A stretch of 64,000 nt of DNA from Polychytrium aggregatum (taxonomy: Eukaryota > Chytridiomycota > Chytridiomycetes > Polychytriales), in contig NW_026516304.1 of assembly GCF_025602895.1 (NCBI RefSeq), positions 106,352-170,351 on the forward strand, read 5' to 3'. The translations under genes were made by a program, and so were the position numbers. Under the pieces are notes generated by a model that saw nothing but the letters and a program-made list of their open reading frames with translations, was not told the origin of the DNA and did not search any database. Shown here in pieces: positions 15,270 through 49,084 of this stretch (its first letter is position 1; every line of letters begins with the position of its first letter).

Positions 15270-15281
15270 AGCGTTCAAAAT
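15270..15281 (-). other. Candidate self-primer binding site, family B copy 1
   Basis: The minus strand reads ATTTTGAACGCT here, two bases inside the LTR border. It is the exact 12-base complement of the minus-strand sequence AGCGTTCAAAAT at 15491-15480 in the 5' LTR. That LTR site lies about 32 bases downstream of a TATA box, the expected transcript start. This fits Tf1-type self-priming. Confidence 0.7.
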
Positions 15282-19437: not shown

Positions 19438-19540
19438 GGCGATGGATGGAGAACGATGAAGGAGAAAGATCACAACGCCCCACTCACGGACATGAAGAGC
19501 CCACAAATATGTCCGAGGGATGAAATCACATGTTCATTCT

Positions 19541-22112: not shown

Positions 22113-22156
22113 GAACAGATCAATACATCGTTTTTTTCTGCCGTATCCACAAAGCC

Positions 22157-28300: not shown

Positions 28301-29923
28301 TGAAGTTATATGTGCAAAAACCCAGTCAGATTATGTGCGACTTCACCAGTATTGGACTCGAGAATCCACACACTTTGTATCAAGATATGAAGAACCACTT
28401 GATTAACCCTGAGACCTACCAGGTCTCAGTTGCTCAAATTCTTATTTACGAGGGGGTTATTGCACCTTCCATGTGTGTTGCAAAGGAAACTACTATCCCA
28501 TGCGTGTCACTCGCGACTGCCGGGTATTGTTCCAATACCCCAACACTTCAAGAGGCTGAATGCCGGCTCAAACAATTCATCAGCACAATCGCCTCTGTTG
28601 CCGAAGTCGACTCGATGAAGAAATCTCAAAGGACCGAGCTCCGGCGATTGGTTTGGTTTCTTCGATTCAAATTGTTCATGATCCAATACCGAAACGAAGC
28701 ATTCCGTCCAGACTCTGAAGCTGCCACTCGATCATTTGAGAATACATATGAACTCATCAAATGCGATGCACCGGCATTGAAAGATAGTATCAGTAAGTTA
28801 ATGTTTGTGTCTTCATATTCTGGCAGGTGATGGATGGCACAAAATTAATTGTTTTATGAATTGTTATTGGAATGTAGTCCCCAAAGAATGTATTCAGTCG
28901 GCCAAATTGATCATCCAGTTGATGCAATGTGAAAAATCCGCAATGTGGTTCGACACAACGTCATATTCGCCCCTTAGCGACAAATCCAAGTATCGCAAGT
29001 ACATCGATCATACCGTTGGTAAAATTATCCAACTACATAAGGCATCCAAATTTCCACTCGCTACGTTTTTGGATATGGCCAGTCCTTTCGGATGGAATTG
29101 TCCAGAGGCACAGTACGTCTTTGGACTATGGATGGAATCTATTTTTCATTTCCGAGCCGCTGGATACTTCTTCAGCCATGGATATGCCGCCGATGGGGAA
29201 CGTGGCGTTTATGGGATCAGGGACGTTGGTTGGATTTGTCATTTGATTCAACGAAGGAAGGCCCTTGCCCGCACCTACGGATTCAAGATGTCCGTAGAAT
29301 CTAGCAAAGCCCGATTCAACGAAACACATCAGTTTGTTTCCGAGGAAACTCGACAAATTATCAAATGCCTCCGAGCTGCTCAAGCCGTCGGAAATTCTTT
29401 GACAATTCTGAGTGAAGCCAGGGAAACTCAGCTTAAAGAGATAGAAGTCGAAAAGCGCCCACCACGTGAGATACACGACTCTAGCTACGACATGTACGAC
29501 ATCGCTAATCAAAACGCATTTAGTGAAGTGTCTGTCGCCTATAATTCATGATAACACATTCTGGTTTCCGATAGAATCTATGCATCACTCGACCCCTCAG
29601 TATTGGAGAGCTTGATCAAGTGTACGGAATTTATTCCCAAGATTATCGTCAAAGAGCGCCTTGCAAAAATCGAAAAAATGAAAGTCAGGCTTCAGATGGA
29701 AATTGAAAATTTTATTGAAAATTTTGAAGGACTTGCCAATGCCCGGCGCTTAGGTTTCAAAATTGCAGCGAAATGCAAGCTCTTTTCTCGCATTCAAACT
29801 TTGCAGGGGAAGATAAACAGACGAGCCCGAAAGGATAGCGCAGAAGTGGATCGAAAGACATTGACATTGAAAAGGGTGCTTGATGATCAACGTAACCGAA
29901 TTGAAAGTGAAACCAATAAATAA
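25330..29923 (+). CDS. Fifteen-exon gene with symmetric short exons, unknown function
   Basis: Exons read as 25330-25431, 25537-25602, 25769-25810, 25927-25947, 26401-26457, 26566-26607, 26721-26777, 26901-26936, 27220-27291, 27379-27423, 27561-27689, 27803-27992, 28061-28792, 28878-29529 and 29575-29923. All have GT..AG borders and together give an open frame of 863 residues. Exons 1-11 are each a multiple of three and encode a Ser/Thr/Pro/Asp-rich disordered N-terminus (about 220 residues). Exons 13-15 encode a folded, more AT-rich part ending in a coiled-coil-like tail. There is no signal peptide, TM segment or known domain. The last codons and TAA lie in a transposon relic. Intron 4 (453 bases) may hide further exons. 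Exon choice was by eye. Confidence 0.65.
25959..25982 (+). repeat. CA microsatellite in intron 4
   Basis: A run of about 12 AC dinucleotides lies just after the GTAAGC donor. Confidence 0.95.
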
Positions 29924-30341
29924 GGGCATACCCTTGAATTTTGACCATTGAACAGTTATTTTGTTACCAAATATCATTGTGCGTTGGACATAACCATTCA
30001 CCACACGCAACCAACTTTTGCATTGTTGCCTTGCGATGCTACACCCTCATCCAGAGTCCGCGCAAGATAATCTCGACCAACGAGTAACAATTTCAACCAC
30101 ACGGAAGTTTGCTTCAAGAGTGTGGAGCCAGTTCGGTTGGAAGGACTCGATGCGCCCAGTGCTGCGAATTCCCACTTTGTCAGGAGCTGCAAGAATCCCA
30201 GCTGCCGGACAGTGTGGAATCGCGACGTCAATGCGGCGCGCAACATGAATACCAAGAGCTCTTGTCTCAGGCGAGAGAGTTGATAGTGCCAAGTAACCAC
30301 AAAACTCGAGACTGATCCCGGTTAGACGAGTTTGGTATCGC
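29904..30341 (+). mobile_element. Internally deleted relic of the IS630-Fanzor transposon
   Basis: The left part (29904-30090) aligns by eye with the left end of the full transposon at 30692 onward: a TIR-like start (AAACCAATAAATAAGGG against AAACCAGAAAGAAACGGG), then TTTTGACCATTGA, TATTTTGTTACC and TTGCGATGCTAC. The right part (30170-30250) encodes, in degenerate form, the Fanzor C-terminus (FVRSC, CRTVWNRDVNAARNM). A decayed right TIR lies near 30314-30341 (TCCCGGTT...GTTTGG). The middle of both genes is missing, so this is a non-autonomous derivative. Its left end supplies the stop codon of the preceding gene. Confidence 0.75.
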
Positions 30342-30691
30342 CTGGAAGGTGGTCGGTGGGTCAGGTCACGTGATAAGGAGGGGTCATCATCGAAAGACCG
30401 CCCTTTTCTTCCGTTCAAAAAATGTCCGGATGGTTAAGGCGCTCACGGTTCGCTCCTCTGCTCTCACACAGCGGGGGTTCGATTCCCGAAAGCCCCCGCC
30501 ATCCAATATGAGATGATTCCGAGAGGCTGTCCGCTTACAGGACACGTCTTCAGAGCTCGCTCCTGCGTCCCGAAAGGACCGGTATAGCGATCTAGGGACC
30601 CATGCGTGCATGGCTTCTCCGAATCACCAGGCGTTGGGGAGATCTCGACATTTTTTTTTCAATTGTGCATGTGAATATATTACAGCCAATC
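30342..30691. other. Spacer between relic and full transposon
   Basis: No gene is supported. A tRNA-like stretch at about 30420-30505 lacks a matching 5' acceptor strand. A T-tract lies at 30652-30660. Confidence 0.4.
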
Positions 30692-30719
30692 TACAGTCAA
30701 ACCAGAAAGAAACGGGACA
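30692..30719 (+). repeat. Left terminal inverted repeat of the Fanzor transposon
   Basis: It starts TACAGTCAAACCAG and ends CGGGACA, the exact reverse complement of 40865-40892. Confidence 0.95.
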
Positions 30720-30776
30720 CCCAGGTTTTGACCATTGATCGAATATTTTGTTACCCAAAACCATCGCGCGCTGACC

Positions 30777-31604
30777 ATGACCATTCGCCACACATCCGAC
30801 TTTCGCACCGCCGCATTGCGATGCTACGCCCTCATCCATAGCCTGCGTAAGGTCGCCTCCATATTCAGTGTATCCAAGAGCACCATCCATCGATGGCACC
30901 GAGGATGCAAGCTGGATGACCCATCCCGGGTCCCAGCTCGCAGATCCACTTTCTTCGAGCAGGCATGTCCAGTCATTCGCACCCTGATTGAACAGGACCC
31001 GTTCCAGACTGGTCCTGTGTTGCGATGCAAGCTCGAGTCCATCCTCCAGAGGAAAGTATCACTCTCACTCTGCCACACTGCCATCCACCGAGCAGGTCTG
31101 TCTCACAAGAGGGCAACACACCTCTACAAGTCCAAGCGACTGGATGAGCGAGTGGCACAGTTCAGGGACCAGGTCCGCTCCATCGACCCACGACGATTCG
31201 TTTTTGTCGATGAGACAGGGATCAGGAGATCCATTTTCCCTCTTTACGGGTACTCATCGAAGGGTGCTCCGCTTCGCCAGCGCAATCACATGAAACACAA
31301 GTCTGTCTCGGCTGCATTTGCCATCAACCACTCTGGTGTGCTGCATCGCATGTACATCCCCACATCATTCAAGACACACTCGATGGTCGAGTTCTTTGAG
31401 CGAGCGGCCTTCCCAGATGGCTCTGTGATTGTGATGGACAATGTCAGCATGCACAAGACAATGGCTGTCCTGGACTGCATCGATCGCCGAGGATGGTCAG
31501 TGATCTTCACCCCACCTGCCTCGCCCGACTTCAATCCCATCGAGAACTTCTTTGGGATTGTGAAGCATCAGTACAGGAAGGCAGCAGCGCTGAATGCGTC
31601 TGAG
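30777..31604 (+). pseudogene. IS630/Tc1-type transposase, N-terminal part, split by chromovirus
   Basis: The ATG at 30777 (context TGACC) starts a transposase with an N-terminal helix-turn-helix (VASIFSVSKSTIHRWHRG) for TIR binding. A DDE_3 catalytic core follows: D145 in FVDETG, D221 in VMDN, E256 in FNPIEN, with 34 residues between the last two (DD34E). After 276 codons the family B LTR enters; a TAG follows at 31608. The original reading frame continues at 38017-38121. All catalytic residues lie before the break, so a truncated product could be made, but it lacks the C-terminal 34 residues. Confidence 0.92.
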
Positions 31605-32395
31605 TGTTAGAGTCCAAAGGGGACTCAACGGCAAAAGAAGAAGTGAGCTCGAAGTGAGCTCAGGGAAAGCAAGGGTAGAGTCCGAAGTGGACTCGGAGAG
31701 GGAGCGAGGGAAGCAAAGATCCGTTCAAGATAAGACTTGTCTCGAAATGAGACGTGAGGAACACTCAGAGAATAAAGTAGAAGGCACTTTATTTAGTCCT
31801 ATTTTGAACGCTAAGGTTCGACTACACATCGCGGGGGTCAGGCTATTTATAGACAAGTCCGGACTTGGCAGCGAAGGGCGGCCAAGGGAGGGAAAAGTGG
31901 GCGATCGAGCAGGGCGAAGGGGGCGATGCACGAACGAGGGCCGAGAAGGACCACCGAGACAGGCAGAGAACCAAAGCGAGAGAGGCGCAAGCAAAAGCGA
32001 AGCACCTGGCAGGAGAAACGTGCAAAGGCGAAGCAATGTGACTCAACGTCCAAGAAGCGGATTGGTCAAGTATAAGGTTGGGGCAAATGCATGCGAGATG
32101 AACAAGAGATCGGGGCGGTCAGGCAGGTCATGAGTCACCGGTGGGGGGACACATGACCGGCAGCCGAATTGCAACCAATCGCAGCAAGGCGCGTGCACAA
32201 ACAAACCGGCGCGTGCGAAGAAGACAAAGGAAGCGGAGCAGCGCGGGAAAACGGAAGTGCGGAAGGAGCGGAAAAGACAGGCAAAAGGCGGAAAATCGGA
32301 GGGGAACTGCAAGGCTACACACAAACAAACAGAAAGGCAAAAGAATAGCCAAGTGTGCAGTCAAAGTGGAGAACAAGCAGGAGCTATCCCTAACA
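31605..32395 (-). repeat. 3' LTR, family B copy 2
   Basis: It runs TGTTAG...CTAACA, matching 37221-38011. Confidence 0.93.
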
Positions 32396-32407
32396 TCATC
32401 CCCTTCC

Positions 32408-35400
32408 TTAGCGACGAACTCCGGACGTCGCCTTCGGCTTTGAGGGATAGCGAAGGTGGAAGTCAGCAACAAGATCAGTGGCGTGGGAAACATTGGCAGC
32501 GGGCTCCCAAGACCGGTCAGTCTCGGAATAGCCCTTCCACTGAACCAAGTACTGTAAGCGACCACGGAAGAGCCGAGAATCGAGAACAGTCTCGACCTCA
32601 AACTCTTCCTGGGAGTTAACAAGAATGGGAGGTGGTTCTGGTTGGGTGAACTCGGGAACAATGTCCTTCGTTCGGGGTTCAAGGAGGGATACATGGAAAA
32701 CGGGGTGAACTTTAAGTGTGGAAGGGAGTTTAAGCTCAAAGGCAACGGGGTTGATGCGGCGAAGAACTTTAAAGGGGCCAAGCTTTTTCTGGTCAAGCTT
32801 GTTGGAGGGACGAAGGGTGCGAATGTGGCGACGATCCAGGAAAACGAGGTCGCCAACGGAGATGTCGGGAGTGGGGAGACGGGATTTGTTGGCCTGCACA
32901 GTGTAGGACTCTTGGGCAACCCGGAGGTTGGCCTTGAGATCCTCGAGAACGGTCTGAAGTCGGTCGACACGTTCTTCGGCAGAGGGCACAACAGAGGGAT
33001 CACGAATGATAGAGGGATCGAAAATGGGGTGATGGCCATGGACTGCAAAGAAGGGAGTCATGCCAGTGGAGGTGTTTTCCGAGTTGTTGTAAGTGAACTC
33101 GGCAAGGGGAAGGTGAAGGGTCCAGTCGTCTTGCAGGTAATTGCAATGGATACGCAAATACTGCTCGATGACCTGGTTGAGAACCTCGGTCGAACCGTCG
33201 GTCTCGGGGTGGAAGGCAGAAGAAAGGGAAATCTTCGTCTTCAGAAGCTCATTGAAGCGCCTCCAGAAGGCCGAAGTAAACTGAGTTCCTCGGTCCGAAA
33301 CAATAGACCGGGGACAACCATGCAAGCGGAAGATGTGGGAGAGGAAGAGTTCGGCGGTTTGCTCGCCTGTAACCGTCTTCGTGGTGGGCACAAAGTGTGC
33401 TTGTTTGGACAGGCGGTCCTTAACCACGAAGATCGAGTCAAAACCGTTCGAAGGTGGGAGATCCGTGATGAAGTCCATCGACAGGTCCCACCAACGTTCG
33501 GAAGGAACGGGGAGAGGATGAAGTAAACCATAAGGGGAGTGACGGGACGGCTTGGCTCGCTGGCACGCTTCACAATTAGCAATGAAGCGACGCACAGACT
33601 TACGAAGCCGGGGCCAGTGAAAGTCCCGGGAGACGAGCTCAACGGTCTTGGCAAGACCAAAGTGACCAGCGGCAGCGGAGCAGTGACGTTGCTCAAACAC
33701 TTTGAGCTGGAGCTCGGGGGAAGGGACAACGATCAGGTCTTTAAAGTAAAGGAGACCGTCACGGAAGGAGTAATCGCCATCAAGACGTTTGGCGTTAAAG
33801 TCAGAAAGGAGGGAACAAGAAAGGGTGGCAGCTCGAATCTCGGAAAGAAAGTCGGGATTCGAGCCGATAACAGTGATGCTGTCGAGAGAAATAGACTCGA
33901 ACAGCTGAAGGAAGTTGGTGGAGTGGAGGGAGTCACCAGGCTTTATCTCAAAGTCAGAACGGCGACTGAGAGCATCGGCTTTGGTGTTGAGACGACCAGG
34001 GCGGTGGTAAATGCGAAAAGCAAAGTCAGAAAGGAATTGGGCCCACCGGAACTGGCGGCGAGAAAGTTGAGAAGCGGCAGTGAACCGGGTAAGGTTCTGA
34101 TGATCAGAGAAAACAAGAGTGGGAATATCAGGGTCGGCAGCCATCAAGTAATGACGCCAGGCGGTAAAGGAATCGACAATGGCGAGGAGCTCTTTGTCGT
34201 GAGTGTCATAATTCACCTCGGCGGGACGGAATTGCCGAGAGTGAAAAGCAACGGGGTGAAGAGCGCCGTCAGGGTCAAACTGAGAAAGGACGGCACCCAA
34301 AGCAAAGTCAGAAGCATCGGGCTCGATGACAGCGGGTTTAGAGAAATCAAAGTATCGAAGAATAGGTGCGGAAGTGAAGGAAAGTTTAAGAGAATCAAAA
34401 GCCTCTTGGGCCTCGGGAGACCAAGAGAAGGTGGAGGATTTGGTAGTGAGGGAAGTCAAAGGACGAGCAAGTGCGGAAAAGTCCTTGACGAAGCGGCGGT
34501 AAAAGTTTGCGAAACCAATAAAGACTTGGATATCGCGAGCAGAAGAGGGAACAGGCCAAAGGGAAACGGCCTCGACCTTGGCAGGGTCCATTTTGATGCC
34601 ATCGGCAGAAATGATCATGCCGAGAAAGTCAACTTCAGAAAGGTCAAAAGAACACTTGGCCGGATTGACCTTAAGGGAGTGTTCACGAAGGCGAGAGAGA
34701 ACAAGCTTAACATGCTCCTCATGCTCCTGGGGATCTTTTGAGAAGATCAGGATGTCGTCAAGATAAATGACAACACAGACACCAAGGAGGTCCGAGAAGA
34801 TGTCGTTCATAAAAAACTGAAAAGCAGCGGGGGCATTCGAAAGACCAAAGGGGATAACATTGTACTCAAATGAGCCAGATTTGCAAACAAAAGCAGTCTT
34901 CCACTCATCGCCCTTCTTGACACGAACCAAGTGGTAAGCATCAGGAAGGTCGAGGTGTGAGAAGACGCGGGCAGAAGAAAGTTTATCCAGAAGATCCTGG
35001 AAGAGGGGAAGTGGGTAACGGTTCTTCTTCGTGATGGCATTGAGGCCTCGGTAGTCGACGCAAAGGCGAAGACCACCATTGGGCTTCTTCACGAAGAAGC
35101 AGGGAGCACCAACGGGAGAAGAGGATTTGGAGATCCAACCACGTGCGAGGGCGTTGGTCAGATACTCCGAAAGAGCAGATTCCTCGGCCGGGGACAAAGG
35201 ATAGACTTTCCCCGGCTTTGGCAAACGAGGTTCCTTTCCATCCTCGGTCCGTACAAACTCAATGGACAAGTCATACGGACGATGAGGAGGCAAGGAAGAA
35301 GGAGGGTCAGACTTGAGGCTGAAAACGTCGCCAAACTCATTGTATTTGAGTGGGACGCCTCGAGAGTCAACAGGGGTGCCAGACTCGGCATACACCTTCG

Positions 35401-36286
35401 TCGTGAGCACGGACCTTATCGACACCGTAGGATACGTCTCCGGCGAAGGAGGACGGATATCCATTTGGGCAGCGAAAATGTCGAGCTTGTCTTCCCGTGC
35501 AAGACGGAGAAGACTCGCCGCATTAACGAGCTCAATGTCGGGTGAAGATAAAGCCGTTGGCTCTTCAGAAAGCGAAGCAGAGTCAAGGCGGGAAGAAAGG
35601 GAAGGCGAAGTGCCAAAGGAGGGAACCGGTGTAAGGGAAGGACCGGAGGGAGGAGGAGTCAAAGGCGAAGTGCCCGAAGGGGGAGGCGAGGAGCCGGAAG
35701 CGGACGGAGTGTCCAAGGAAGAAGCAGAGACATCCGCGAGGATGTGTCCATCAGCAAGGCAAGAGGGATCGGAGAATGAAAGGGAGAGGGACTTCCAATT
35801 AACAACTGGATTATGCAAGCGCATCCAGGGAAGACCAAGAGTGATGGGAGTGGTGGAGAGTCGAGTCACAAGAAAAGAAATCGACTCGGTGTGGGAACCA
35901 ATGGTCAGAGTCAAAGGCGCGGTTTGGAAACGAATGAAACCGGCCGAAGAACCATCAGCAAGGGAAACGGAGTAAGGAGTAGAAAGAGGGATAAGAGAGA
36001 GTTTATGGAGATCGGCAAAGGCAGGATCAATGAGGGCAAGAGCGGAACATCCATCATCAATAAAAACAGAAAGGGAGATGGAGACCGGGCCAGAAAGACT
36101 CATGACGATAAGAGTGGCCGGAAGAAGAAGCTTATCGTCCGATAGTGACGAGTCAGAGGGGGAAGATGTTCGTATCGCCGAACAGACCACCTCGCTTACT
36201 TGCGAGGTGCTGCTCGGCTGTGAGCATTTCCCGAGTTCCGTTTGACCAGAACCGGGCACTGCTGAACATCGCGACTGCCGGGACAA
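32408..36286 (-). CDS. pol: Pol polyprotein, family B copy 2
   Basis: The open frame spans about 1292 residues, with the same domain order and motifs as copy 1 (VIYLDDILIFS in RT, HHCC and DDE integrase, chromodomain at the C-terminus). There is no ATG at the upstream end. It overlaps gag by 91 bases in the -1 frame, so a -1 frameshift is implied. No stops or frameshifts interrupt it. Confidence 0.93.
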   Translation of the reverse strand: MSRQSRCSAVPGSGQTELGKCSQPSSTSQVSEVVCSAIRTSSPSDSSLSDDKLLLPATLIVMSLSGPVSISLSVFIDDGCSALALIDPAFADLHKLSLIPLSTPYSVSLADGSSAGFIRFQTAPLTLTIGSHTESISFLVTRLSTTPITLGLPWMRLHNPVVNWKSLSLSFSDPSCLADGHILADVSASSLDTPSASGSSPPPSGTSPLTPPPSGPSLTPVPSFGTSPSLSSRLDSASLSEEPTALSSPDIELVNAASLLRLAREDKLDIFAAQMDIRPPSPETYPTVSIRSVLTTKVYAESGTPVDSRGVPLKYNEFGDVFSLKSDPPSSLPPHRPYDLSIEFVRTEDGKEPRLPKPGKVYPLSPAEESALSEYLTNALARGWISKSSSPVGAPCFFVKKPNGGLRLCVDYRGLNAITKKNRYPLPLFQDLLDKLSSARVFSHLDLPDAYHLVRVKKGDEWKTAFVCKSGSFEYNVIPFGLSNAPAAFQFFMNDIFSDLLGVCVVIYLDDILIFSKDPQEHEEHVKLVLSRLREHSLKVNPAKCSFDLSEVDFLGMIISADGIKMDPAKVEAVSLWPVPSSARDIQVFIGFANFYRRFVKDFSALARPLTSLTTKSSTFSWSPEAQEAFDSLKLSFTSAPILRYFDFSKPAVIEPDASDFALGAVLSQFDPDGALHPVAFHSRQFRPAEVNYDTHDKELLAIVDSFTAWRHYLMAADPDIPTLVFSDHQNLTRFTAASQLSRRQFRWAQFLSDFAFRIYHRPGRLNTKADALSRRSDFEIKPGDSLHSTNFLQLFESISLDSITVIGSNPDFLSEIRAATLSCSLLSDFNAKRLDGDYSFRDGLLYFKDLIVVPSPELQLKVFEQRHCSAAAGHFGLAKTVELVSRDFHWPRLRKSVRRFIANCEACQRAKPSRHSPYGLLHPLPVPSERWWDLSMDFITDLPPSNGFDSIFVVKDRLSKQAHFVPTTKTVTGEQTAELFLSHIFRLHGCPRSIVSDRGTQFTSAFWRRFNELLKTKISLSSAFHPETDGSTEVLNQVIEQYLRIHCNYLQDDWTLHLPLAEFTYNNSENTSTGMTPFFAVHGHHPIFDPSIIRDPSVVPSAEERVDRLQTVLEDLKANLRVAQESYTVQANKSRLPTPDISVGDLVFLDRRHIRTLRPSNKLDQKKLGPFKVLRRINPVAFELKLPSTLKVHPVFHVSLLEPRTKDIVPEFTQPEPPPILVNSQEEFEVETVLDSRLFRGRLQYLVQWKGYSETDRSWEPAANVSHATDLVADFHLRYPSKPKATSGVRR

Positions 36287-37149
36287 GACTTTTCCCCGCA
36301 GTACAAGCAGAGACCCTGCTCACGACGTCGCTTTTTCTCGACGTCGGAGAGCTTAGCAGGGCGGACCGAGACAGAGTCAAGGTCCATGGGAGTGGGTGCA
36401 GAAGAGGAGGAAGAAGAAACATGCGCGGGAGAATGGTGGTGATGGGGAGCAGAGCGAGAAGAAGGAGGAGGAGGTTGGGAACGGGAGGAGACCTTGAGAC
36501 GATGGAGGGCATCGTCGTACTCGACCGCTGCCTTGATCAACTCGGGCAAGGAAGCGGGAGCGGGGCGGAGACCGATGAGGTGGAACTTGACCTCAGACTT
36601 CAAACCCTCCTTGAAGAAGTGCATCTTGGTGGGTTCGTCAGTCTGGACGCGGGCGGCGAGCTGGACGAAGCGGGTGGCGAAGGCTTGGCAGGACTTGAGC
36701 TGGACCAAGCGTTTGAGGTCGTTCAAGGCCTTATCTTGCGAGGAGGCCGTGTCCTCACCGAAGGTCGACTTCAGGGCAACTTCGAAGTCGGCGAAGGAAG
36801 CAGGGAAACGGTTGGCCATGTAGAAGGCGGCCTCGTACCATTTGAAAGCTTCGCCGCGGAGGAAGGAGGTGGCATAAAGGACCTTCTGGCGCTCGGGCGC
36901 AAAGAAGGCAGGATCGGCGAGGAAGACGAGGTGGCACTGGGCGAGGAAGGCCGTCGTCTCGTCGCGGGAACCTAGGAACTCCTTGGGCTTGTTCACCTGG
37001 TAGACCTGGCGGGGAGCGGCGGCGGGAGCTTGCAGATCTTGGATCTGACGATGGAGAGCAGCGTTCTGGGTCATGAGGGCGTTCATACGCTCCTCCATGC
37101 GCGCCAGGTACGCATTGAGATCTGCCGGGGGTGCAGCAGGCTCAGCCAT
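36196..37149 (-). CDS. gag: Gag polyprotein, family B copy 2
   Basis: The ATG is at 37149 (MAEPAAPPADLN), as in copy 1. It has the gag core and the same atypical cysteine motif at the C-terminus. The frame is intact. Confidence 0.88.
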   Translation of the reverse strand: MAEPAAPPADLNAYLARMEERMNALMTQNAALHRQIQDLQAPAAAPRQVYQVNKPKEFLGSRDETTAFLAQCHLVFLADPAFFAPERQKVLYATSFLRGEAFKWYEAAFYMANRFPASFADFEVALKSTFGEDTASSQDKALNDLKRLVQLKSCQAFATRFVQLAARVQTDEPTKMHFFKEGLKSEVKFHLIGLRPAPASLPELIKAAVEYDDALHRLKVSSRSQPPPPSSRSAPHHHHSPAHVSSSSSSAPTPMDLDSVSVRPAKLSDVEKKRRREQGLCLYCGEKSCPGSRDVQQCPVLVKRNSGNAHSRAAPRK

Positions 37150-37206
37150 CGGATCGACGAGGGAAAGAGAGGCGAAAGAAGAAGAAAGGCCGGGAAGCCA
37201 AGAGGG

Positions 37207-37218
37207 AGCGTTCAAAAT
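37207..37218 (-). other. Candidate self-primer binding site, family B copy 2
   Basis: It is the same 12-base complement as in copy 1, pairing with LTR bases 37428-37417 on the minus strand. Confidence 0.68.
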
Positions 37219-37220
37219 GA

Positions 37221-38011
37221 TGTTAGAGTCCAAAGGGGACTCAACGGCAAAAGAAGAAGTGAGCTCGAAGTGAGCTCAGGGAAAGCAAGGGTAGAGTCCG
37301 AAGTGGACTCGGAGAGGGAGCGAGGGAAGCAAAGATCCGTTCAAGATAAGACTTGTCTCGAAATGAGACGTGAGGAACACTCAGAGAATAAAGTAGAAGG
37401 CACTTTATTTAGTCCTATTTTGAACGCTAAGGTTCGACTACACATCGCGGGGGTCAGGCTATTTATAGACAAGTCCGGACTTGGCAGCGAAGGGCGGCCA
37501 AGGGAGGGAAAAGTGGGCGATCGAGCAGGGCGAAGGGGGCGATGCACGAACGAGGGCCGAGAAGGACCACCGAGACAGGCAGAGAACCAAAGCGAGAGAG
37601 GCGCAAGCAAAAGCGAAGCACCTGGCAGGAGAAACGTGCAAAGGCGAAGCAATGTGACTCAACGTCCAAGAAGCGGATTGGTCAAGTATAAGGTTGGGGC
37701 AAATGCATGCGAGATGAACAAGAGATCGGGGCGGTCAGGCAGGTCATGAGTCACCGGTGGGGGGACACATGACCGGCAGCCGAATTGCAACCAATCGCAG
37801 CAAGGCGCGTGCACAAACAAACCGGCGCGTGCGAAGAAGACAAAGGAAGCGGAGCAGCGCGGGAAAACGGAAGTGCGGAAGGAGCGGAAAAGACAGGCAA
37901 AAGGCGGAAAATCGGAGGGGAACTGCAAGGCTACACACAAACAAACAGAAAGGCAAAAGAATAGCCAAGTGTGCAGTCAAAGTGGAGAACAAGCAGGAGC
38001 TATCCCTAACA
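37221..38011 (-). repeat. 5' LTR, family B copy 2
   Basis: This 791-bp LTR carries the promoter (TATAAATA on the minus strand) and inferred transcript start at about 37428. Confidence 0.93.
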
Positions 38012-38016
38012 CTGAG

Positions 38017-38121
38017 GGGTTCAAGATCGGGATGGTGACCCTGTTCGAGTCCGCCGTGCGGAGGGTGCTTCCAGATGTCTTCCCACCGCTGATTGAGCGC
38101 GCGATGCGTTTCTGGGCGTGA
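38017..38121 (+). pseudogene. C-terminal part of the split transposase
   Basis: After the target duplication the transposase frame resumes for 34 codons and ends in TGA at 38119-38121. It is in phase with 30777-31604 once the chromovirus and one duplicate are removed, which gives about 310 residues, a usual size for this family. Confidence 0.85.
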
Positions 38122-38172
38122 ATCATACCATCGAAAAAGTGCGTCATAATCACCCTTGGTTTTTTCTTGCCT

Positions 38173-40776
38173 ATGGGTAGAACCAGCGGGGTGTCGAAAT
38201 CGCGACAGATGGCTCCCCGCAAGAAAAAATCCCCGCCTGACCCAAATCCAGATCCTGGACAACCCAGTGACGCACCTGCTGACAAGAAACCCGTCATCAA
38301 ATCATGTCGTGCCTGTGGATTGACCAACCACGTCAAGCCATTCACCAAGAAATGCAAGGCCCGAACCGAGTTGGGCCCCCCTTCTGACTCGGCGTCTGCC
38401 TTTGGCGCCGTTTGCCAAGCACCCCCTCCAGACGAGTCCAGTGAAGACATCGCCGTTCCGGCCCTCGTGGTCGAGATGCCTGCACCAAAAGTCCCTGTAT
38501 GTACCACATGTGGGGAAGAGGGTCATGCCAGAAGCAGCAGCTCGTTGTGTTCAAAAAAGAACCCCCTCTGGAGCTCTACCGAGCCCGACTGTGGTCCAAA
38601 CGAGTATGCCAAGGCAGAGTACTCGATCATCAAGTGCACTCTTGACGCCATCATCAAGAACGATGCCTTGCACGACAAGATTGAGGAGACTGTCCGGGCC
38701 ATGACCCATGTGCAGTACGAAGCATCTCGGCTCCTGGAGCTGCATCTCAGGCGATGCTTGGACGAGGGTATCACCATCCCCACTGTGTCGTCGAGTGACC
38801 CTTCGTTCGTTCGAAAGTGTTTCAACATGGTGCATACCGGAGCTACAGATGTCAAGAATGGCACGACCCAAGAAGACAAGCACCTCCTCGACACCTATGA
38901 GCTGTATCGAAGTACATGGAGTGGATCGTGTGCCCTACCTCCTGTAACCCTCCCAAAGGGCACTGGTTCACAGGTCCTCACATTGGCTGTCAAGACCTAT
39001 GCAATCAACTGTGAGACACACATTCTCGATCGGTATTGGTCCCTTCTACGCCGATTCTGCAATCTGGCCCTGATTGCTCCCAAGGATGTCAAGCGACATA
39101 CACACGTCGATGAGTGTATGAAGCTGATGGAGAATCCCCTCTCCGATACACTCCTCGGTGATCTGAGGAAATCCTTCGCCCACCATGCCGACCAGCTCTA
39201 CATCTTTCGCTACAAAAGCCAACAGGACCTGTACAAAGTCGTACCAGTATTGGCCAGTGAAGTCTCTCGGCTGACCCACCGAAAGGAGACACTGTTCGTG
39301 GCGACCATTCGAAACAGAATCATCCCCAGGCTCGTGAGGGATACCGATGATCTGAGAGGAGTGTGTGGACGACTGAACGAGGAGATGTGTCGCGCGATCG
39401 AACGAAGGCAGTCGGATCAATACAACGCACTCCACAAACGGCACGAGGAGGTGGAGAAGCAGGTCACCGTCAACACGAAGCGAATCAAGCGATTGACCGA
39501 CCGACTTGCTCAGACCAGGAAACGACACAACGTCCCTCGAGCACAGTGCGCCTTGGTCCCGCTCTGCGATGCCAGAGCCAAGTATGTCAAGCTCGACACC
39601 AAAGCATTGTGGGAGTTCCTTGGTTCCCAGAAGGGTACTGGTTTCAAGTGGAACGACCTGAAGACCAAGGTCAATGGCACCACAAAACAAGAGATCTTCT
39701 GGCGAAGGACCTTCAAGCTGGAGTCGAGACTCTTTGGTGTCAGGAAAGAGGGGAAGCAGCTCTTTGGTTGCGAGATCAGCACCGATGGGGTCGGGTGCTC
39801 GATCACCACACTCAGATATAAGATCCTGGAGAAGAAGGGCCCCGATGCCAAGCCGGTACCCAAGACCAAGGTGAACACACTCACTCCCGAGCAGAAGATC
39901 CAGACCAGGGTCGGTCCCATTGACGACTCTCGGACCACATGGATCGGGATCGACCCTGGAGTGGGATCCATCTTCACCGCTGTCAATCGAGCACCCGGTC
40001 AACCATCCATCCAGGAGCAAGCCGGTGTCAAGGTGACCAAGGCACAGCGCGCCAACGAGAAGATCGTGTCGTTCTCCAACAAGGAGTACCAGCATCGAAC
40101 TGGCACCAGTCAGGCGACCAAGTGGATCCAGAGCACCCACAAGGCCCTTGATCTGCAGGAATGGATGAGCACCACACCAAGTCCCAAGATCCCCGGGGTG
40201 GCCCCCTTCCTGCGATACATTCGCCATGTGTTCGATGGAGACATGCTGGACAAACAGCTGTACTTCAACCTGACCCGGCGACGGCGATTCAAGCGACTCG
40301 ATCTCCACAGCAAGCGACAGCGCACCGTCCACGAGATGTGCAAGCGAGTCATCGACCAGGCAGCAAGGGAGACCGAAGTGGTGATTGCCTTTGGGAATGC
40401 ATCCTGGAAACAGGGGAAGGGATATGCCTCCAGTCCCAGGAGACTCAGGTTTGCCAAGTACTTTGAGCAATTCCACCATCACCAGAGACGCCCACCAGAC
40501 CCATCCGTCTCCAAGATCCATGTGTGCTCGGTGAACGAGTTCAACACATCCCAGGTGTGCTCACACTGTCGGGAAGCCAAGCGACTCGAGAAGGTCGAGC
40601 ATCTTGATATCGAGAAACCACACTTTGTCCGGAGCTGTGCAAGCTGCCATACGCTGTGGGATCGAGACATCAATGCAGCCAGGAACATGATCTCGGTATG
40701 CCAGTCGATCATCGCCACAGGAGATCGACCGGGTGTATTCAAGACTGTGCTTCCGGACCCACCCAAAACAAAGTGA
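38173..40776 (+). CDS. Fanzor (eukaryotic TnpB-like RNA-guided nuclease)
   Basis: This 867-residue protein starts at ATG 38173; ATG 38209 is an alternative. Two N-terminal zinc motifs share one spacing, CX2CX4HX7C (residues 45-61 and 110-126). A long helical region, rich in basic residues, leads to the RuvC-like nuclease: motif I IGIDPGVGS (D594), a motif II strand VVIAFGNASW (736-745) and motif III WDRDINAARNM (D832). A zinc ribbon (C796, C799, C822, C825) sits between II and III as in TnpB. The canonical motif II glutamate is not after the strand; E733/E735 just before it are candidates, in line with the rearranged site known in Fanzors. The gene lies 51 bases after the transposase and ends 88 bases before the right TIR. 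Confidence 0.92.
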   Translation: MGRTSGVSKSRQMAPRKKKSPPDPNPDPGQPSDAPADKKPVIKSCRACGLTNHVKPFTKKCKARTELGPPSDSASAFGAVCQAPPPDESSEDIAVPALVVEMPAPKVPVCTTCGEEGHARSSSSLCSKKNPLWSSTEPDCGPNEYAKAEYSIIKCTLDAIIKNDALHDKIEETVRAMTHVQYEASRLLELHLRRCLDEGITIPTVSSSDPSFVRKCFNMVHTGATDVKNGTTQEDKHLLDTYELYRSTWSGSCALPPVTLPKGTGSQVLTLAVKTYAINCETHILDRYWSLLRRFCNLALIAPKDVKRHTHVDECMKLMENPLSDTLLGDLRKSFAHHADQLYIFRYKSQQDLYKVVPVLASEVSRLTHRKETLFVATIRNRIIPRLVRDTDDLRGVCGRLNEEMCRAIERRQSDQYNALHKRHEEVEKQVTVNTKRIKRLTDRLAQTRKRHNVPRAQCALVPLCDARAKYVKLDTKALWEFLGSQKGTGFKWNDLKTKVNGTTKQEIFWRRTFKLESRLFGVRKEGKQLFGCEISTDGVGCSITTLRYKILEKKGPDAKPVPKTKVNTLTPEQKIQTRVGPIDDSRTTWIGIDPGVGSIFTAVNRAPGQPSIQEQAGVKVTKAQRANEKIVSFSNKEYQHRTGTSQATKWIQSTHKALDLQEWMSTTPSPKIPGVAPFLRYIRHVFDGDMLDKQLYFNLTRRRRFKRLDLHSKRQRTVHEMCKRVIDQAARETEVVIAFGNASWKQGKGYASSPRRLRFAKYFEQFHHHQRRPPDPSVSKIHVCSVNEFNTSQVCSHCREAKRLEKVEHLDIEKPHFVRSCASCHTLWDRDINAARNMISVCQSIIATGDRPGVFKTVLPDPPKTK

Positions 40777-40892
40777 TTGCCAACCAGGACGGGAAACAAT
40801 CGCACGACCTGCCCACTGGGGTCTACGGATCAGCAGACCTGTGTCGCTGATGCCAGGAAGTGACTGTCCCGTTTCTTTCTGGTTTGACTGTA
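40777..40892 (+). ncRNA. Candidate guide (omega-type) RNA region
   Basis: TnpB and Fanzor guide RNAs usually come from the nuclease 3' end and the adjoining transposon right end, with the guide reading into the flank. Here 88 non-coding bases link the Fanzor stop to the TIR. They can fold: ATCAGC at 40829-40834 pairs with GCTGAT at 40846-40851 around an 11-base loop, with GGTCT (40820-40824) and AGACC (40835-40839) as a competing stem. If the rule holds, the guide would start at 40893. There is no direct evidence of transcription. Confidence 0.4.
40865..40892 (-). repeat. Right terminal inverted repeat of the Fanzor transposon
   Basis: It is the exact reverse complement of 30692-30719, ending in the TA target dinucleotide. 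Confidence 0.95.
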
Positions 40893-40911
40893 CTGAAAAC
40901 ACATACACACA

Positions 40912-43900
40912 CTAGAGCGAGTCCCAGACCGCCGCGGTAACGACCAAGTCATAGACGAAGGCTCCCTCATGGTCTCGTCCCTGGATTCCCAGCTGCTCCT
41001 CGAATTTGGCAAAGAACTTGCTAAAGGCCTGCCCGGTGCTGTTGATTCTGATGTTGCGATTGCGCATAAAGCTCGAGTACTTGTTCCAGACGTCGTTGCG
41101 GTGGAAGGCGATGCGTTCGGGGCTATGGTCTCGGGTTGCCTGCTTGTTAACGCACTCTTGGATGAATTGGGCCACAGTGTCGTTCTGGCATCGGATGTCG
41201 TCGACCGTCTTCTGGAACTCTTGCGGCAAAGGAGGAGGCGGGCGCTTGAGCTGCTCGACCAGGTAACTCAGGAACATGGGCGCCCAGGAGATGATGGATT
41301 CGTCGACATCGCTGCGGCCGGCAAAGACATAGTTGTCGGGATCGGGGATGCGTGTCGGGTGGTTTGGAGGGATAAAGGTGCTGCTGAACTTTTCAATAAT
41401 CAACCGTCTCCACGTTCCTTCGTCCTGTGTGCTCGCATCGATCTTGGGAATGTCATTGCACATCATGAAGAAGCCGCAGGCAAGTAGAAACTCGACTTCG
41501 TCATTGACAAAGAGCTGGCGACCGGTCATGATGTCACCACCGGTGACGGATTTGAGCGTTCCCAGGAGCAAGGTGTCGTCTCGGTTGGGCTCCTGACAAA
41601 CGACAATGCGCGAACCGATCAGGCGCAGGAGATCGGGCGACGGTCTTGACGGATCCCCCCTCTTCTCCGTAAACAGGGAAACGCTGCAGGTTTTGAAGTA
41701 ATCCCCGGTAGCGCGGCGAAGGAATCGGATCAGACTGGACTTGCCGTTGGAGCCTTTGCCCTGGAGAAGCGTAAAGACTTGCTCGCTCAAGACACCCTTC
41801 AGGCACGAGGCAAAGCGGTGCATAATGTACTTGCGCTGATGCTCGATGGGTAAGATTTGGTTGATGAAGGACTCCATGGCCTCGCGAAGCTCGATGGGGT
41901 ATTTCTCGTACTTGAGGTAGACGTGGTGCGTCGACGACGACACATAGTCTTCCGGGCGGCCTGCACGGGCCTTCACCTTGAAGCTACCGAGTCGTTTCTT
42001 CGTGACCGGATCAACATTCTCACGGAACTCGAGGACACAGTTGGCACATCCGAGGAGCGAAGGATTGGTGTTCAGAAGATGGCGGAACTTGTCAACGTCT
42101 CTGGAGCTGTTGTTATGCACAGCCAGCTCATGGGAGGAGCGACGCTCTTCATAGATCTTCTCGGTCATGACTGCCCAGTGACGGCGGCAGTTGTTCGACA
42201 CCTGGGCGATAAGTCCATTGATCTTCAACTGGCTTCCGAGAATTGATTTGATCTCCTTATAAGTCTTGTCAAGCCGCTTCAGTGTCTTGACAAGCTCGGA
42301 TTCAACCTTCTTGATTTTGCGACCGTCGTTCCCACGTCCCTTCTTCCTGGCTCGAGTATCGTCACCGTCATTACCCGCATCAGCATCAGCATCAGCATCG
42401 TCAGTGGTGTCGTGCGGGGGTTGCTTGCTGCTCTTGAACGACAATGACAGGACTTCTCCCAGGTAGGCGGCGTAAAAGATGAGCTGGATATAACTCATGT
42501 TCGAGCCCTTTTTGAGATTGATAACCGATCCGAAAAATGCACCGTGTAGGATAAAGTTGCGGACCGAATCGGTACGTGCGATCCAGCGATGTTCGATAGG
42601 CGTGAACACAAAACCCCTGATACCTCCGGTCGAGTACTGAGAGGCAAGTTCATCCGGGCAGTGAAAGTCTTGAATGGCCGGTATGCTAAAGATTGCATCC
42701 CCAAGGGACACGTCCTTGAGCTCACCAAGGACTCCTCGGATCTCGACAGCACTGATACGAGCACGCTCGATCAAATTCTTGGTGATCGTGACCATCGGTG
42801 ATGCTTCGTTCAGTCTAGAAGGAGGCGGGGACTTGGCGACGATCAGCGGAAGAATCATCAAGAGCTCCAAGAAAGAGAGCTGTTCGACATCGGGTCCCTC
42901 GGGCATCATTTCAGCGACAAGTCTTGGATCTACCATGTGCTCGTGGATGAGTTTGTAGATGTACTCCTGCTGCTCCAAGCAAGCTTCTCTTATGAGGCAC
43001 TGAAGGGTGTTCTCAGCACTATCGACTCTTTCGACGACCTCGGGGGAAATATCGAGCTCAGAGTCGAGTCCTCGGTCGATGTACGAATTGGCGGTCGGAG
43101 GCACTGGGTCGGCTTGACTCGACTGGATATCGGCTGTCTCGACTCGGATTTTTCCGGGGACGACGTGTCTCCAAACAATATCCTGGATGAAGACATTGTG
43201 ATGAACACATCGATCCGCAAAGCAGCTCATGTAAAAGTTGCCGGTAAAGTCATCAGAAGCCTTTCCGGCTCTGTCCGTTGGAGAGATGAGGACATAGAGT
43301 GATCCACGTCCGTTTTCGCCACGAGTATGCATTCTCTTGTAGAAGGGACATACTTGAGGAGCCAATGTGAATAAATGAACATCATTGACATACTTTTTAT
43401 AGTCTTTGACGTCAAAGCGAACGCTGGTCGTATTGCGAAGGATCGTCTGGACAACTTGCAAAATAAGCGGGGGGCAATCGACGAAATCGATTCCAGGAAC
43501 GGTGGCCACACCTTTGGTTGCCGCCTGAAGGTAATCGCCGTAATGTGTTCCGGTGTCGTCGTCACTGTTCTCATCGTCTTCATTCCTGGGTCGGCGCCTG
43601 ACACGTCTTCCGTCTGAAAAGATGGTTTTGCCGACCATTGTGATAGGGATGAGATGGATTTCCAGGGCCGGATCTGTACCGAAGATCGTTTCCTTCATCG
43701 GTAGATTGGTAAGACTGCCATTGACTACGATATGGTCGAGGCGGAGGCTCGTGAGTTGTATGGCACCGACCGTGAGAGGTTCATCGTATCGCTTGTATTC
43801 GTAGTCGTCCTCGTTTTCCATAGGAACCAACTCGGCTCGGCGGTAGACATAGCCAAAGGGAACGTTGCCGCCGAATCGGTAGATGGTTTGGGTCATTTCG

Positions 43901-44802
43901 AGCTCTTTCTGTTTGGCGGTTTCGTCCGTGGTCTTGCCCTTAGCGGTAGCACCCATGATTCCTTTGTGGCTGCCGTACATTCGAAGCCCAGAGTTGTTGT
44001 AGACGGATTTATCGATAATATTGTCAAGATCAATGACACCGAAGTCGTTGTCGAAAAGAATGGATGTGAGTTTCTTGACAATGACGTCTCGCAAGGCGAT
44101 CGCGGTTACTTTGGAAGTAACCAGGTTGGGGTAGTTGATGTGCCACCCGACAATGTTGCGGCTCGACATGATCTCGATAAGGTCTTCATCGGCATGGTCG
44201 GAATCGGTGATTTCTCTGCAGTTATTCATTATGATGAGCTTGATGTTGCTGAGGATGGTATAGACCAGCTTTCGGAATTCCTTGGGTTGCCAGGCTTTGA
44301 AAGTCTCGTACTTGAAGTCCAGATCAATAAAGAACTTGAAGCCGTTTGGATCGATGCGCTCGGTAATGGAGTTGGGTTCGTGGTTTTTTTGAGTCATGTC
44401 GATATAGTTCATGCCGTAGGCGTTCACAAAATCGACGTACTTCTCCCAAAACTCGACCACTGCTTTGGACGGGATGTCGAGGGCGCCATTACGGAGATGA
44501 TACTTGGAATTGTACGCTGCCAGAAAGTGGGTCTGTTTGTTCCCTTTCTTGACGTGATTCTTAAGGAACCCGACCAAAAGGGACAATGCTCGAGCATATT
44601 CTGTAATCTGGGTTGGAGTTCGGTTTGGATGCACGAGCGGAACCGATGATGGACCAGGACGCGGTAAGATGGGGCGGTAGTCGCGGCTGCCACAAGGCTG
44701 ATCGATCGGGGGGCGATCCATGATCTCGACTTGACGCTGGACCTCGACGCTGGACGTGGTGCTGCGGGTATCTTCGCCTTGATCGGATGATACACCGTCC
44801 AT
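40912..44802 (-). CDS. D5-like primase-helicase (giant-virus replication protein)
   Basis: This primase and SF3 helicase unwinds and primes viral DNA at the fork. It is 1296 residues from ATG 44802. An archaeo-eukaryotic primase-like region has FFIDLDF near residue 158. An acidic low-complexity stretch (DADADADAGND) sits mid-protein. The C-terminal SF3 ATPase has Walker A QGKGSNGKSS near 1015, Walker B-like RIVVCQEPN near 1063 and a CNDIPKID sensor-type motif. The original gene began at 50328: 18 further codons in frame lie upstream, split off by a chromovirus. The ATG at 44802 could still start a nearly full-length protein, but the promoter is now 5.5 kb away. Confidence 0.88.
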   Translation of the reverse strand: MDGVSSDQGEDTRSTTSSVEVQRQVEIMDRPPIDQPCGSRDYRPILPRPGPSSVPLVHPNRTPTQITEYARALSLLVGFLKNHVKKGNKQTHFLAAYNSKYHLRNGALDIPSKAVVEFWEKYVDFVNAYGMNYIDMTQKNHEPNSITERIDPNGFKFFIDLDFKYETFKAWQPKEFRKLVYTILSNIKLIIMNNCREITDSDHADEDLIEIMSSRNIVGWHINYPNLVTSKVTAIALRDVIVKKLTSILFDNDFGVIDLDNIIDKSVYNNSGLRMYGSHKGIMGATAKGKTTDETAKQKELEMTQTIYRFGGNVPFGYVYRRAELVPMENEDDYEYKRYDEPLTVGAIQLTSLRLDHIVVNGSLTNLPMKETIFGTDPALEIHLIPITMVGKTIFSDGRRVRRRPRNEDDENSDDDTGTHYGDYLQAATKGVATVPGIDFVDCPPLILQVVQTILRNTTSVRFDVKDYKKYVNDVHLFTLAPQVCPFYKRMHTRGENGRGSLYVLISPTDRAGKASDDFTGNFYMSCFADRCVHHNVFIQDIVWRHVVPGKIRVETADIQSSQADPVPPTANSYIDRGLDSELDISPEVVERVDSAENTLQCLIREACLEQQEYIYKLIHEHMVDPRLVAEMMPEGPDVEQLSFLELLMILPLIVAKSPPPSRLNEASPMVTITKNLIERARISAVEIRGVLGELKDVSLGDAIFSIPAIQDFHCPDELASQYSTGGIRGFVFTPIEHRWIARTDSVRNFILHGAFFGSVINLKKGSNMSYIQLIFYAAYLGEVLSLSFKSSKQPPHDTTDDADADADAGNDGDDTRARKKGRGNDGRKIKKVESELVKTLKRLDKTYKEIKSILGSQLKINGLIAQVSNNCRRHWAVMTEKIYEERRSSHELAVHNNSSRDVDKFRHLLNTNPSLLGCANCVLEFRENVDPVTKKRLGSFKVKARAGRPEDYVSSSTHHVYLKYEKYPIELREAMESFINQILPIEHQRKYIMHRFASCLKGVLSEQVFTLLQGKGSNGKSSLIRFLRRATGDYFKTCSVSLFTEKRGDPSRPSPDLLRLIGSRIVVCQEPNRDDTLLLGTLKSVTGGDIMTGRQLFVNDEVEFLLACGFFMMCNDIPKIDASTQDEGTWRRLIIEKFSSTFIPPNHPTRIPDPDNYVFAGRSDVDESIISWAPMFLSYLVEQLKRPPPPLPQEFQKTVDDIRCQNDTVAQFIQECVNKQATRDHSPERIAFHRNDVWNKYSSFMRNRNIRINSTGQAFSKFFAKFEEQLGIQGRDHEGAFVYDLVVTAAVWDSL

Positions 44803-48100: not shown

Positions 48101-49084
48101 ACCGGGACCGGCTTGGTCGGTGTCGTCGACCTCACGCACGACACAGAGGAACGACGTGTCCTTCTTGATCAGCCTCTTGAATTGCATGGCTGAGAGGAGA
48201 GGTGGCATGTTGGGTGAGGCCATGCCCTGCAGGACAATGTCAGGGCCAACACGGACAGTGCGGCCTTTCCAGTCGACGACTGGAGTCGGCTCGGCACGAG
48301 CAAGCCAGCTCATGCCGAGGATGGCATCGAACTTGGTGTCGATCACTTGGAACAACAGGACAGGATGGTACTTGGGATGGAGGGCCACTCGCAGGACCAC
48401 TTGGTGTGTGCACTGCTGCACACGATCGTCTGCAAGCGCCACACTCATCGGCGACTTCTTCTTGGTTGCATGTATGTTGAGCTCCTGGAGCAAGCGTCTG
48501 CTGACAAAGTTGCAGCTTGCTCCAGAGTCCACCATCATTCGGACGGTGTGACCTTGGACGGTGGCAGGGAGGTACAGCAGGGACTCTTCATGGTCCTCCT
48601 GCACAGCCTCCTGCACCATGACTTGACTTGGGGGAACGGGCGACACTTGGTCTTGGTTGGCTTCATCACGGCCACTCGGACATTTTGGATAGGGTTCGGC
48701 CATTGCGGGGGCCTGCGGCGTCAGCACGCCATTGCACACGACGTCCACGGCTTGCGGACACATGTCGGAAGCATCCGACACACACGACTTGACAGGGGTG
48801 AGGGCACAGGCGGTCCTGTCCCTCAAGGGTTCTTGATTTTCTTTTTTGTTTTGGTTTTCAATTTTGGTTTTCTCTTCACGTTCGTGGAGAGGCAGGCGGC
48901 TTGCGCCACCATGCACCTCTCGCACGACGCACAACACTTGGTTTGTTTCTCCTTCGGGGGAGGGGGCGAGGTGAACTTCCTCTGGAGACGCGTGGACTGC
49001 ATTGAGCAATCCACGGCGTTGGTCTCCTACTAGGGCTCCAGAGCCACCTAGTAGGGTCGGCCGTTTCCCGACTTCATGGGGCAC
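45152..49084 (-). CDS. pol: Pol polyprotein (PR-RT-RH-IN-chromodomain), family D
   Basis: The open frame spans about 1310 residues with a canonical protease [22 protein letters not shown], RNase [14 protein letters not shown], integrase (GHFGVEKT...[12 protein letters not shown]) and a C-terminal chromodomain ([11 protein letters not shown]...[11 protein letters not shown]). The frame opens at a GTG codon, not an ATG, and overlaps gag by 37 bases in the -1 frame, so frameshifted expression is likely. Confidence 0.94.

Follow-up and report, generated by a model that had tools for sequence, protein, structure and literature searches.

A FANZOR TRANSPOSON FAMILY BUILT OF TWO MODULES

How does a Fanzor, an RNA-guided nuclease of eukaryotes, come to sit with a Tc1-type transposase next to giant-virus genes in the chytrid Polychytrium aggregatum, and does it contribute to the movement of the transposon that carries it? 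The locus lies in a window of 64,000 nucleotides that forms the right-hand part of a 170-kb contig (NW_026516304.1) in an assembly of 64.7 Mb. A preliminary description of the window had presented a 10.2-kb element as a recently mobile cassette of transposase and Fanzor with perfect 28-bp terminal inverted repeats (TIRs), and had suggested viruses as its carriers. Our reading, with a probability of about 0.75, is that the element is an interrupted copy of a high-copy Fanzor family, in which a Tc1 transposase module is joined to a Fanzor module that would use a guide RNA to have the element copied back after excision.

The genome contains more than 100 transposon-borne Fanzor copies. The preliminary description had named a genome search with the TIR and the Fanzor as its check and a lack of further copies as grounds for abandoning its reading; many copies are found, and its placing of a eukaryotic Fanzor on a Tc1-type element extends to a multicopy family. 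With up to three mismatches, the 28-nt TIR has 352 matches, 25 of them exact, and a reversed-pattern control has none. We recognise three groups when 30 Fanzor loci are taken together with 30 end loci and six additional regions. Group A, to which the window belongs, has elements of about 3.8 kb with the transposase and Fanzor A. Group B Fanzors are 79 to 85% identical to that of the window and lie in elements that start CACTATCAAT and finish TTCATAGTG, that is, with CACTA...TAGTG ends; Fanzors A and B together give 52 scored genome matches plus 15 short pieces. Group C transposases (L069/L073 and L071/L074; two fetched elements) are 97% identical to that of the window, whereas the group C Fanzor (L074, 790 codons) is 43% identical to the window's and the right end, TGTCCCGTTTTTTTCTGAATAAAGTGTA, differs from that of group A. 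The 57 scored copies of Fanzor C are about full length and 94 to 100% identical to that of L074, 51 of them without stops, and the group C right end has 170 exact matches with a non-A base ten positions out. Tc1 transposase matches among those listed, in the same orientation and at most 8 kb upstream, accompany at least 31 of the 57 C copies, at least 8 of the 12 A copies, and 0 of the 40 B copies.

Because one transposase occurs with two Fanzors and Fanzor A occurs also in a CACTA-type vehicle, the Fanzor and the right end behave as an exchangeable module, and the left end and transposase travel together. Judged from these sequences, Fanzor A is swapped between transposons along with its own right end, a pattern that is expected if the right end forms part of a guide-RNA scaffold. 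We infer RNA production, guide use, cleavage, and copy-back as follows: the Tc1/mariner module (left end and DD34E gene) would provide cut-and-paste movement at TA sites, and the Fanzor module (nuclease gene and right end) would most likely make a guide RNA with a scaffold that includes the right TIR and a guide taken from the DNA flanking the right end. Once the element has been excised, cleavage of the vacated site by the Fanzor, next to its target motif, would prompt repair that copies the element back.

THE WINDOW COPY

The 10.2-kb span consists of a Fanzor transposon of about 3.8 kb and a retrotransposon of about 6.4 kb (Table 1). The exact 28-nt inverted ends are confirmed, against 72 to 94% complementarity in the remaining 17 listed inverted pairs of that region, and TA borders the element on both sides, as had been described. 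The TIRs are thus perfect in the window, but this is exceptional: in every one of the 10 further group A loci where a left end can be seen, which represent 9 insertion sites because L045 and L049 share theirs, left and right ends differ at 4 to 6 of 28 positions. The usual group A left end is typically TACAGCCAATCCAATAAAAAACGGGACA. In the window, as in a copy on contig 58 with 0 substitutions in 3 kb, the left end instead matches the right one exactly, and the first 11 bases of the usual version stand in front of it. One locus (L050) has GA instead of TA at its left border, and the flanks of six compared group A loci are mutually unlike. Since its relatives carry imperfect ends, we rejected the equation of perfect TIRs with recency, and because the transposase is interrupted and perfect TIRs are atypical of the family, the window copy itself is not supported as recently mobile.

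The DD34E Tc1 transposase is present as proposed, with the catalytic triad D145, D221, and E256 and 34 residues between the second D and the E. The genome holds 134 scored relatives from 561 candidates, with a commonest open frame of 325 codons; that of the window stops after 291. A Ty3/gypsy element sits inside the transposase 3' end in the opposite orientation, flanked by a 5-bp duplication, CTGAG, and is young, its two long terminal repeats (LTRs) being identical at 791 of 791 positions. In undisturbed relatives, the transposase stop is followed by the Fanzor. The gap of 51 bases first reported between the two genes does not hold, as the Ty3 element intervenes and the start that it implies, at 38173, is not conserved; with the methionine at 38209 the gap is 87 nt. 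There are more Ty3/gypsy elements in the window (1056-5860, 10474-15278, and 45152-49869), of which the first and last were run against Pfam; the one at 10474-15278 has frame sizes close to those of the nested element, in a comparison of frame sizes only.

Directly left of the window element is an old, internally deleted Tc1-Fanzor relic of the group C type. Its first part (29910-30066) is a left-end and transposase 5' remnant (76% identical to L069 over 157 nt by blastn), and its second (30086-30248) is the 3' end of a group C Fanzor (92.6% identical to L073 over 163 nt by blastn), including at 30173 the peptide HFVRSCKNPSCRTVWNRDVNAARNM, which L073 also has.

THE FANZOR PROTEIN AND ITS LOW dN/dS

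The Fanzor of the window, too, stands as described, with a Cas12f1-like_TNB finger in Pfam (1.2e-9; 4.4e-9 for group C, 7e-10 and 3.3e-10 for others, all over the cut-off) and the signature DPG...E-x6-CxxC...CxxC...RD. A Fanzor signature with an alternative glutamate and a zinc finger is reported in PMC10711439. Scored with widened spacer limits, DPG, the alternative glutamate six residues before the finger, the C4 finger, and the final aspartate are present in 13 of 15 aligned proteins, including that of the window; L060 is without the first finger cysteine, and L074 of group C has CX4C at the second CxxC and retains DPG, E-x6-CxxC, and RD. A phmmer search of the Fanzor against the Protein Data Bank (PDB) gave no match.

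Ratios of nonsynonymous to synonymous substitution (dN/dS; Nei-Gojobori, ratio of sums) are 0.299 for A-A (21 pairs), 0.312 for B-B (78), and 0.319 for A-B (91), and 0.389 for A-C (7) and 0.386 for B-C (13), where dS is about 1.5 and near saturation; the set, whose pairs are not independent, draws on seven of the twelve fetched group A loci, 13 of the 18 of group B, and one of the two of group C, and it omits copies with stops, frame breaks, and duplicates, which biases it towards low ratios. We note that divergence within the Fanzor gene is mosaic, reaching 25% from the window in some 150-bp blocks and 0 to 4% in others (L047, L050, and L046), as would result from an exchange of segments among copies.

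GROUP B USES A CACTA-TYPE VEHICLE

Group B elements retain 53 bp of the transposase 3' end and a Tc1-type right end inside their CACTA ends. CACTA-type left ends number 107 within 1 mismatch (control, 0), and there are 123 right ends with a strict search pattern and 150 with a looser one. Of 18 fetched copies, 13 have two recognisable ends; an exact 3-bp duplication flanks 10 of these, at 8 distinct sites, and is missing from L051, L052, and L064. Pairing the first 100 of the 107 left ends with the first 100 of the 150 right flanks gives 66 end pairs up to 6 kb apart, of which 34 are 3.0 to 3.5 kb and 28 are 1.2 to 1.3 kb apart, with 4 others; 34 left ends are unpaired among those listed, partly because the pairing draws on 100 ends of each kind. 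The short class (L034 and L038) is without about the first 70% of the Fanzor gene and retains the 3' region. Two inverted pairs of CACTA-type left ends, 1.1 to 1.3 kb apart (G000:C51:45753-46824 and C142:26633-27914), are possibly Fanzor-less CACTA elements.

The stretch of 17 to 29 nt after the terminal TA of group B elements is variable, with 32 alleles in four length classes among the 100 listed of 123 copies; in 17 of the 18 loci this stretch (at most 29 nt) has 11 alleles, compared with 4 in the next 60 nt. Group B could have arisen by insertion of a Tc1-Fanzor element into a CACTA element that was then amplified, with the Fanzor idle and the TIR-adjacent stretch merely mutable. The Tc1 remnants inside the CACTA ends favor such a nested origin, and the neighboring CACTA DNA may be constrained as a transposase-binding region, making the variable stretch look special, but neither the low dN/dS of the group B Fanzors nor the concentration of alleles and length classes in so short a stretch fits an idle gene well, and we regard this account as possible, if rather doubtful.

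A ONE-SIDED FLANK PREFERENCE PREDICTS A TARGET MOTIF

Flanks are printed for 77 of 164 left ends, of which 64 are of the TACAGGC type with 57 distinct flanks. Among these 57, the base at -1, before the TA, is T in 55, and a C stands one base further out in 1; the mirror image, an A at +1 after the right TA, is seen in 33 of 170 group C right ends, which are not matched copies of the left ends. Left ends of the TACAGCC type, as in group A, have the T in 3 of 7 (Fisher p 0.0008 versus the TACAGGC type). We assume the TACAGGC ends to be those of group C, as all 4 fetched transposase loci (4/4) have such an end and two were followed into Fanzor C. A symmetric preference would give the right-side A equally often, and the one-sided T therefore points to a motif on the left. 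In Spu-1 of Spizellomyces punctatus, the left repeat is preceded by CA, the start of CATA, which is the measured target-adjacent motif of its Fanzor, SpuFz1 (PMC10432273). From the one-sided T and this parallel, we predict (D)TTA as the target motif of Fanzor C.

These observations bear on whether the Fanzor is a passive passenger, with the Tc1 and CACTA transposases alone making the copies and the flank bias reflecting a transposase preference. Both vehicles are ordinary cut-and-paste types and internal deletions are frequent (28 short against 34 full-size elements among the 66 paired CACTA ends; also L017, L030, and L037), and both points favor this view. However, dN/dS is about 0.3 in groups A and B, including the vehicle without a Tc1 transposase; with transposases that are nearly identical, C-type left ends carry the T bias and A-type ends do not clearly do so; and a symmetric transposase complex would not yield a bias on one side. 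We consider a passive Fanzor unlikely.

GUIDE-RNA PREDICTION AND WEIGHING OF THE EVIDENCE

The predicted scaffold runs from the Fanzor stop to the end of the right TIR (Table 1), and there is precedent for such a scaffold in Fanzors (PMC10432273 and PMC10711439), the right end being predicted to belong to it in other Fanzor1s (PMC10711439). Over this interval of 116 nt the window matches L046, L047, and L050 at every position, and in the 450 nt before it the comparisons show 12 to 14 differences. We take this as a weak suggestion that the 3' region is more conserved than the coding sequence, because these pairs are also much alike in the adjoining coding sequence, with a divergence of about 3%.

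Several results weigh against an active, RNA-guided Fanzor family in two kinds of vehicle. The profile match to the solved Fanzor SpuFz1 (8gkh) is the best of three and weak (E 0.057), and a protein collection gave no homologue of one Fanzor or of the Fanzor alignment among the roughly 8,000 best word-sharing candidates that were scored. Our guess is that an annotated Fanzor may be missing because repeats were masked before annotation; the Polychytrium DNA polymerase B (PolB) is in the same collection. Folding of the scaffold is not clearly better than that of shuffled sequences (z -1.30 for the window; -0.05 to -2.26 over 7 sequences, two of them identical), and an alignment of 18 scaffolds has one consensus pair with two-sided change. 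RNA folding as proof of a guide RNA was rejected on these weak z-scores and the single two-sided pair change. The CACTA assignment is based on ends and duplications: PF02992 (TNP2 type) has 29 genome matches, 28 of them over the cut-off (three of these only with neighbors in frame). Each covers at most about one-third of the model, and a link to group B ends was seen for none of them. The flank letters come from fewer than half of the left ends, and the left and right samples are of unmatched copies.

Copies that share an insertion site on different contigs add a further pattern. The flanks of L054 and L061, which lie on two contigs, agree except at 2 of 2,126 bp, and their interiors differ by about 5 to 6%, with 28 and 35 gap columns in two adjoining blocks and both versions open without stops. 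L045 and L049 have about 87 substitutions inside and 0 in the compared flanks, L062 and L063 are identical throughout, and L040 and L041 differ by one substitution as far as about 1.07 kb past the right end and diverge from there on. Replaced interiors at one site could reflect gene conversion or, just as well, an artefact in the assembly of near-identical repeats. The chances of an artefact are about even: the repeats are of high copy number and the contigs of L012 and L019, with 0 substitutions in 3 kb and three 2-base gaps besides the alignment start, fit redundant contigs of one haplotype, but the differences between L054 and L061 are coherent, with both frames intact, and the two further same-site pairs show almost no interior differences.

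A bolder version of the proposal would make the Fanzor and its right end an independent RNA-guided parasite that swaps Tc1 partners, imposes its motif on the insertions that persist, and is copied between CACTA elements under RNA guidance, with breaks near the guide mended imprecisely so that new guides arise. Imprecise mending, if it occurs, would account for the indel-rich stretch beyond the TIR and for replaced interiors at identical sites. We think this extension improbable, and prefer a Fanzor module that acts in copy-back of its vehicle.

COMPARISON WITH KNOWN FANZOR ELEMENTS

In the TnpB systems of IS605 and IS607 elements, the nuclease and right end form one unit, the guide is derived from the flank, and the target motif lies at the left border. 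The family described here differs in having a DDE cut-and-paste vehicle and in the assumption that its TIR is part of the scaffold. Fanzor1 proteins are known in Mariner, Helitron, IS4, Sola, and MuDR elements, among which common transposase halves occur with differing 3' halves (PMC3627910), in agreement with the statement in the preliminary description that Fanzors ride in several eukaryotic transposon classes, mariner types among them.

The closest parallel in a chytrid is Spu-1, which codes for SpuFz1 (PMC10432273 and PMC3627910) and has putative TA duplications, TIRs of about 30 bp, a right end that adjoins the Fanzor stop, and two conserved bases outside the left repeat. Spu-1 also has nuclease-less "ghost" copies, which the short group B class resembles, and Ty3 insertions (PMC10432273). 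No transposase was found between the Spu-1 repeats; here, the element itself contains the DD34E gene, one transposase occurs with two Fanzor lineages, and the predicted motif is TTA, not CATA. PUl-1, PUl-4, and PGv-1 (PMC3627910) likewise combine a Mariner-type transposase and Fanzor1 in one element with TIRs and TA, with Fanzor-only variants that have the same ends. PGv-1 and three relatives, the most fully described set there, are single copy and mostly viral, in contrast to the many copies and exchanged modules found here. The Sola2- and IS4-Fanzor chimeras and the MuDR-type carriers (PMC3627910) are alike in combining a common transposase half with unrelated 3' halves and in having Fanzors without a transposase of their own. 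The P. aggregatum family shows this kind of arrangement on a larger scale and more clearly.

Neither CACTA nor EnSpm appears in the main text of PMC3627910. No link between a Fanzor and CACTA was found in the open-licence literature, in which Fanzor and EnSpm are named together only as separate items, and none of the open-licence papers on P. aggregatum concerns Fanzors, judged by title. CACTA/CMC vehicles might be listed in a 2023 survey of eukaryotic and viral Fanzors (Science Advances). Fanzors in Tc1 elements are thus already known, and the module exchange, the motif, and the CACTA vehicle look new in the papers searched.

What a Fanzor does for its transposon is left as a question in PMC10432273, which reports no transposase within the Spu-1 repeats. 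In the P. aggregatum genome, one transposase is found with two Fanzors, a vehicle from another superfamily makes a third setting, and there are ghost-like copies and a testable motif prediction for one lineage, so that the contribution of the Fanzor becomes separable from that of the transposase. With TTA as its predicted motif, Fanzor C is, moreover, a concrete candidate where new programmable nucleases are sought.

THE VIRAL NEIGHBORHOOD

The preliminary description was right that endogenous giant-virus genes adjoin the element. The primase frame lies 19 bp from the end of the Fanzor transposon, and its product matches structures of C962R of African swine fever virus (ASFV) in the PDB (2e-12); in its helicase part, DUF5906 (3.3e-5) and Pox_D5 (0.013) are both under the cut-offs, and ASFV C962R chains align at 906-1218. 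The PolB frame (52092-55061) is 100% identical to a partial protein named P. aggregatum over the 84% of the searched part that is covered, and other named chytrid relatives are from Quaeritorhiza (50%), Blyttiomyces (38%), and Chytriomyces (37%). Between 40.9 and 57.7 kb there are also a glutaredoxin-like and a polysaccharide pyruvyl transferase-like frame, with further frames without assignment up to 63 kb, and another Ty3 element interrupts these viral genes. We read the region from 40912 to 63067, near the contig end, as an endogenous giant-virus region. No report of an endogenous giant virus in Chytridiomycota was found in the open-licence literature, and PHROGs gave no match for eight neighboring open reading frames (ORFs).

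The suggestion that viruses carried the element into this lineage, with the window showing the vehicle, draws on this close juxtaposition and on the occurrence of Fanzors in viruses (PMC3627910). It is not supported: a copy beside viral DNA is unremarkable in a family spread over many contigs, and IMG/VR, scanned with limited sensitivity for relatives of the primase, of PolB, of the transposase, and of the Fanzor alignment, gave none. We regard a viral vehicle as highly improbable.

Table 1. Coordinates of the Fanzor transposon, the nested retrotransposon, and adjoining features in the window
Feature	Position	Strand	Basis or remark
Old internally deleted Tc1-Fanzor relic, group C type	29910-30248	+	Directly left of window element
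Remnant of usual left end, TACAGCCAATC	30681-30691	+	Directly outside present left TIR
Left TIR	30692-30719	+	Exact inverted copy of right end
Tc1 transposase (DD34E), main part, interrupted	30777-31604	+	Pfam DDE_3 2.1e-22
LTR of nested Ty3/gypsy element	31605-32395	.	CTGAG duplication at 31600-31604
Ty3 pol (reverse transcriptase, RNase H, integrase, chromodomain)	32408-36286	-	Pfam RVT_1 1.4e-39 and others
Ty3 gag	36196-37233	-	Retrotrans_gag 3.9e-8
Second LTR of nested Ty3 element	37221-38011	.	CTGAG duplication at 38012-38016
Transposase 3' remainder beyond retrotransposon	38012-38121	+	Sequence; uninterrupted order in L040, L069-L071
Fanzor A	38209-40776	+	Open frame from 38167; Met 38209 invariant in 15/15 aligned relatives
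Predicted guide-RNA scaffold	40777-40892	+	Fanzor stop to right TIR end
Right TIR	40865-40892	-	Belongs to Fanzor module
Predicted guide (flanking DNA past right end)	40893-40908	+	Inferred from 14-15-nt extension reported for Spizellomyces Fanzor (PMC10432273)
Giant-virus-type primase-helicase (C962R/D5-like)	40912-44802	-	AEP_C962R 1.2e-13; first gene of endogenous viral region

Elsewhere in the window, the G+C content between 28000 and 30000 is 0.42 to 0.43, compared with 0.495 to 0.625 in the remainder, and two ORFs from this stretch have no Pfam or PHROGs match. The window also codes for a Sel1-repeat protein (18304-19506) and a protein with a ricin-type beta-trefoil lectin domain (22034-23989).

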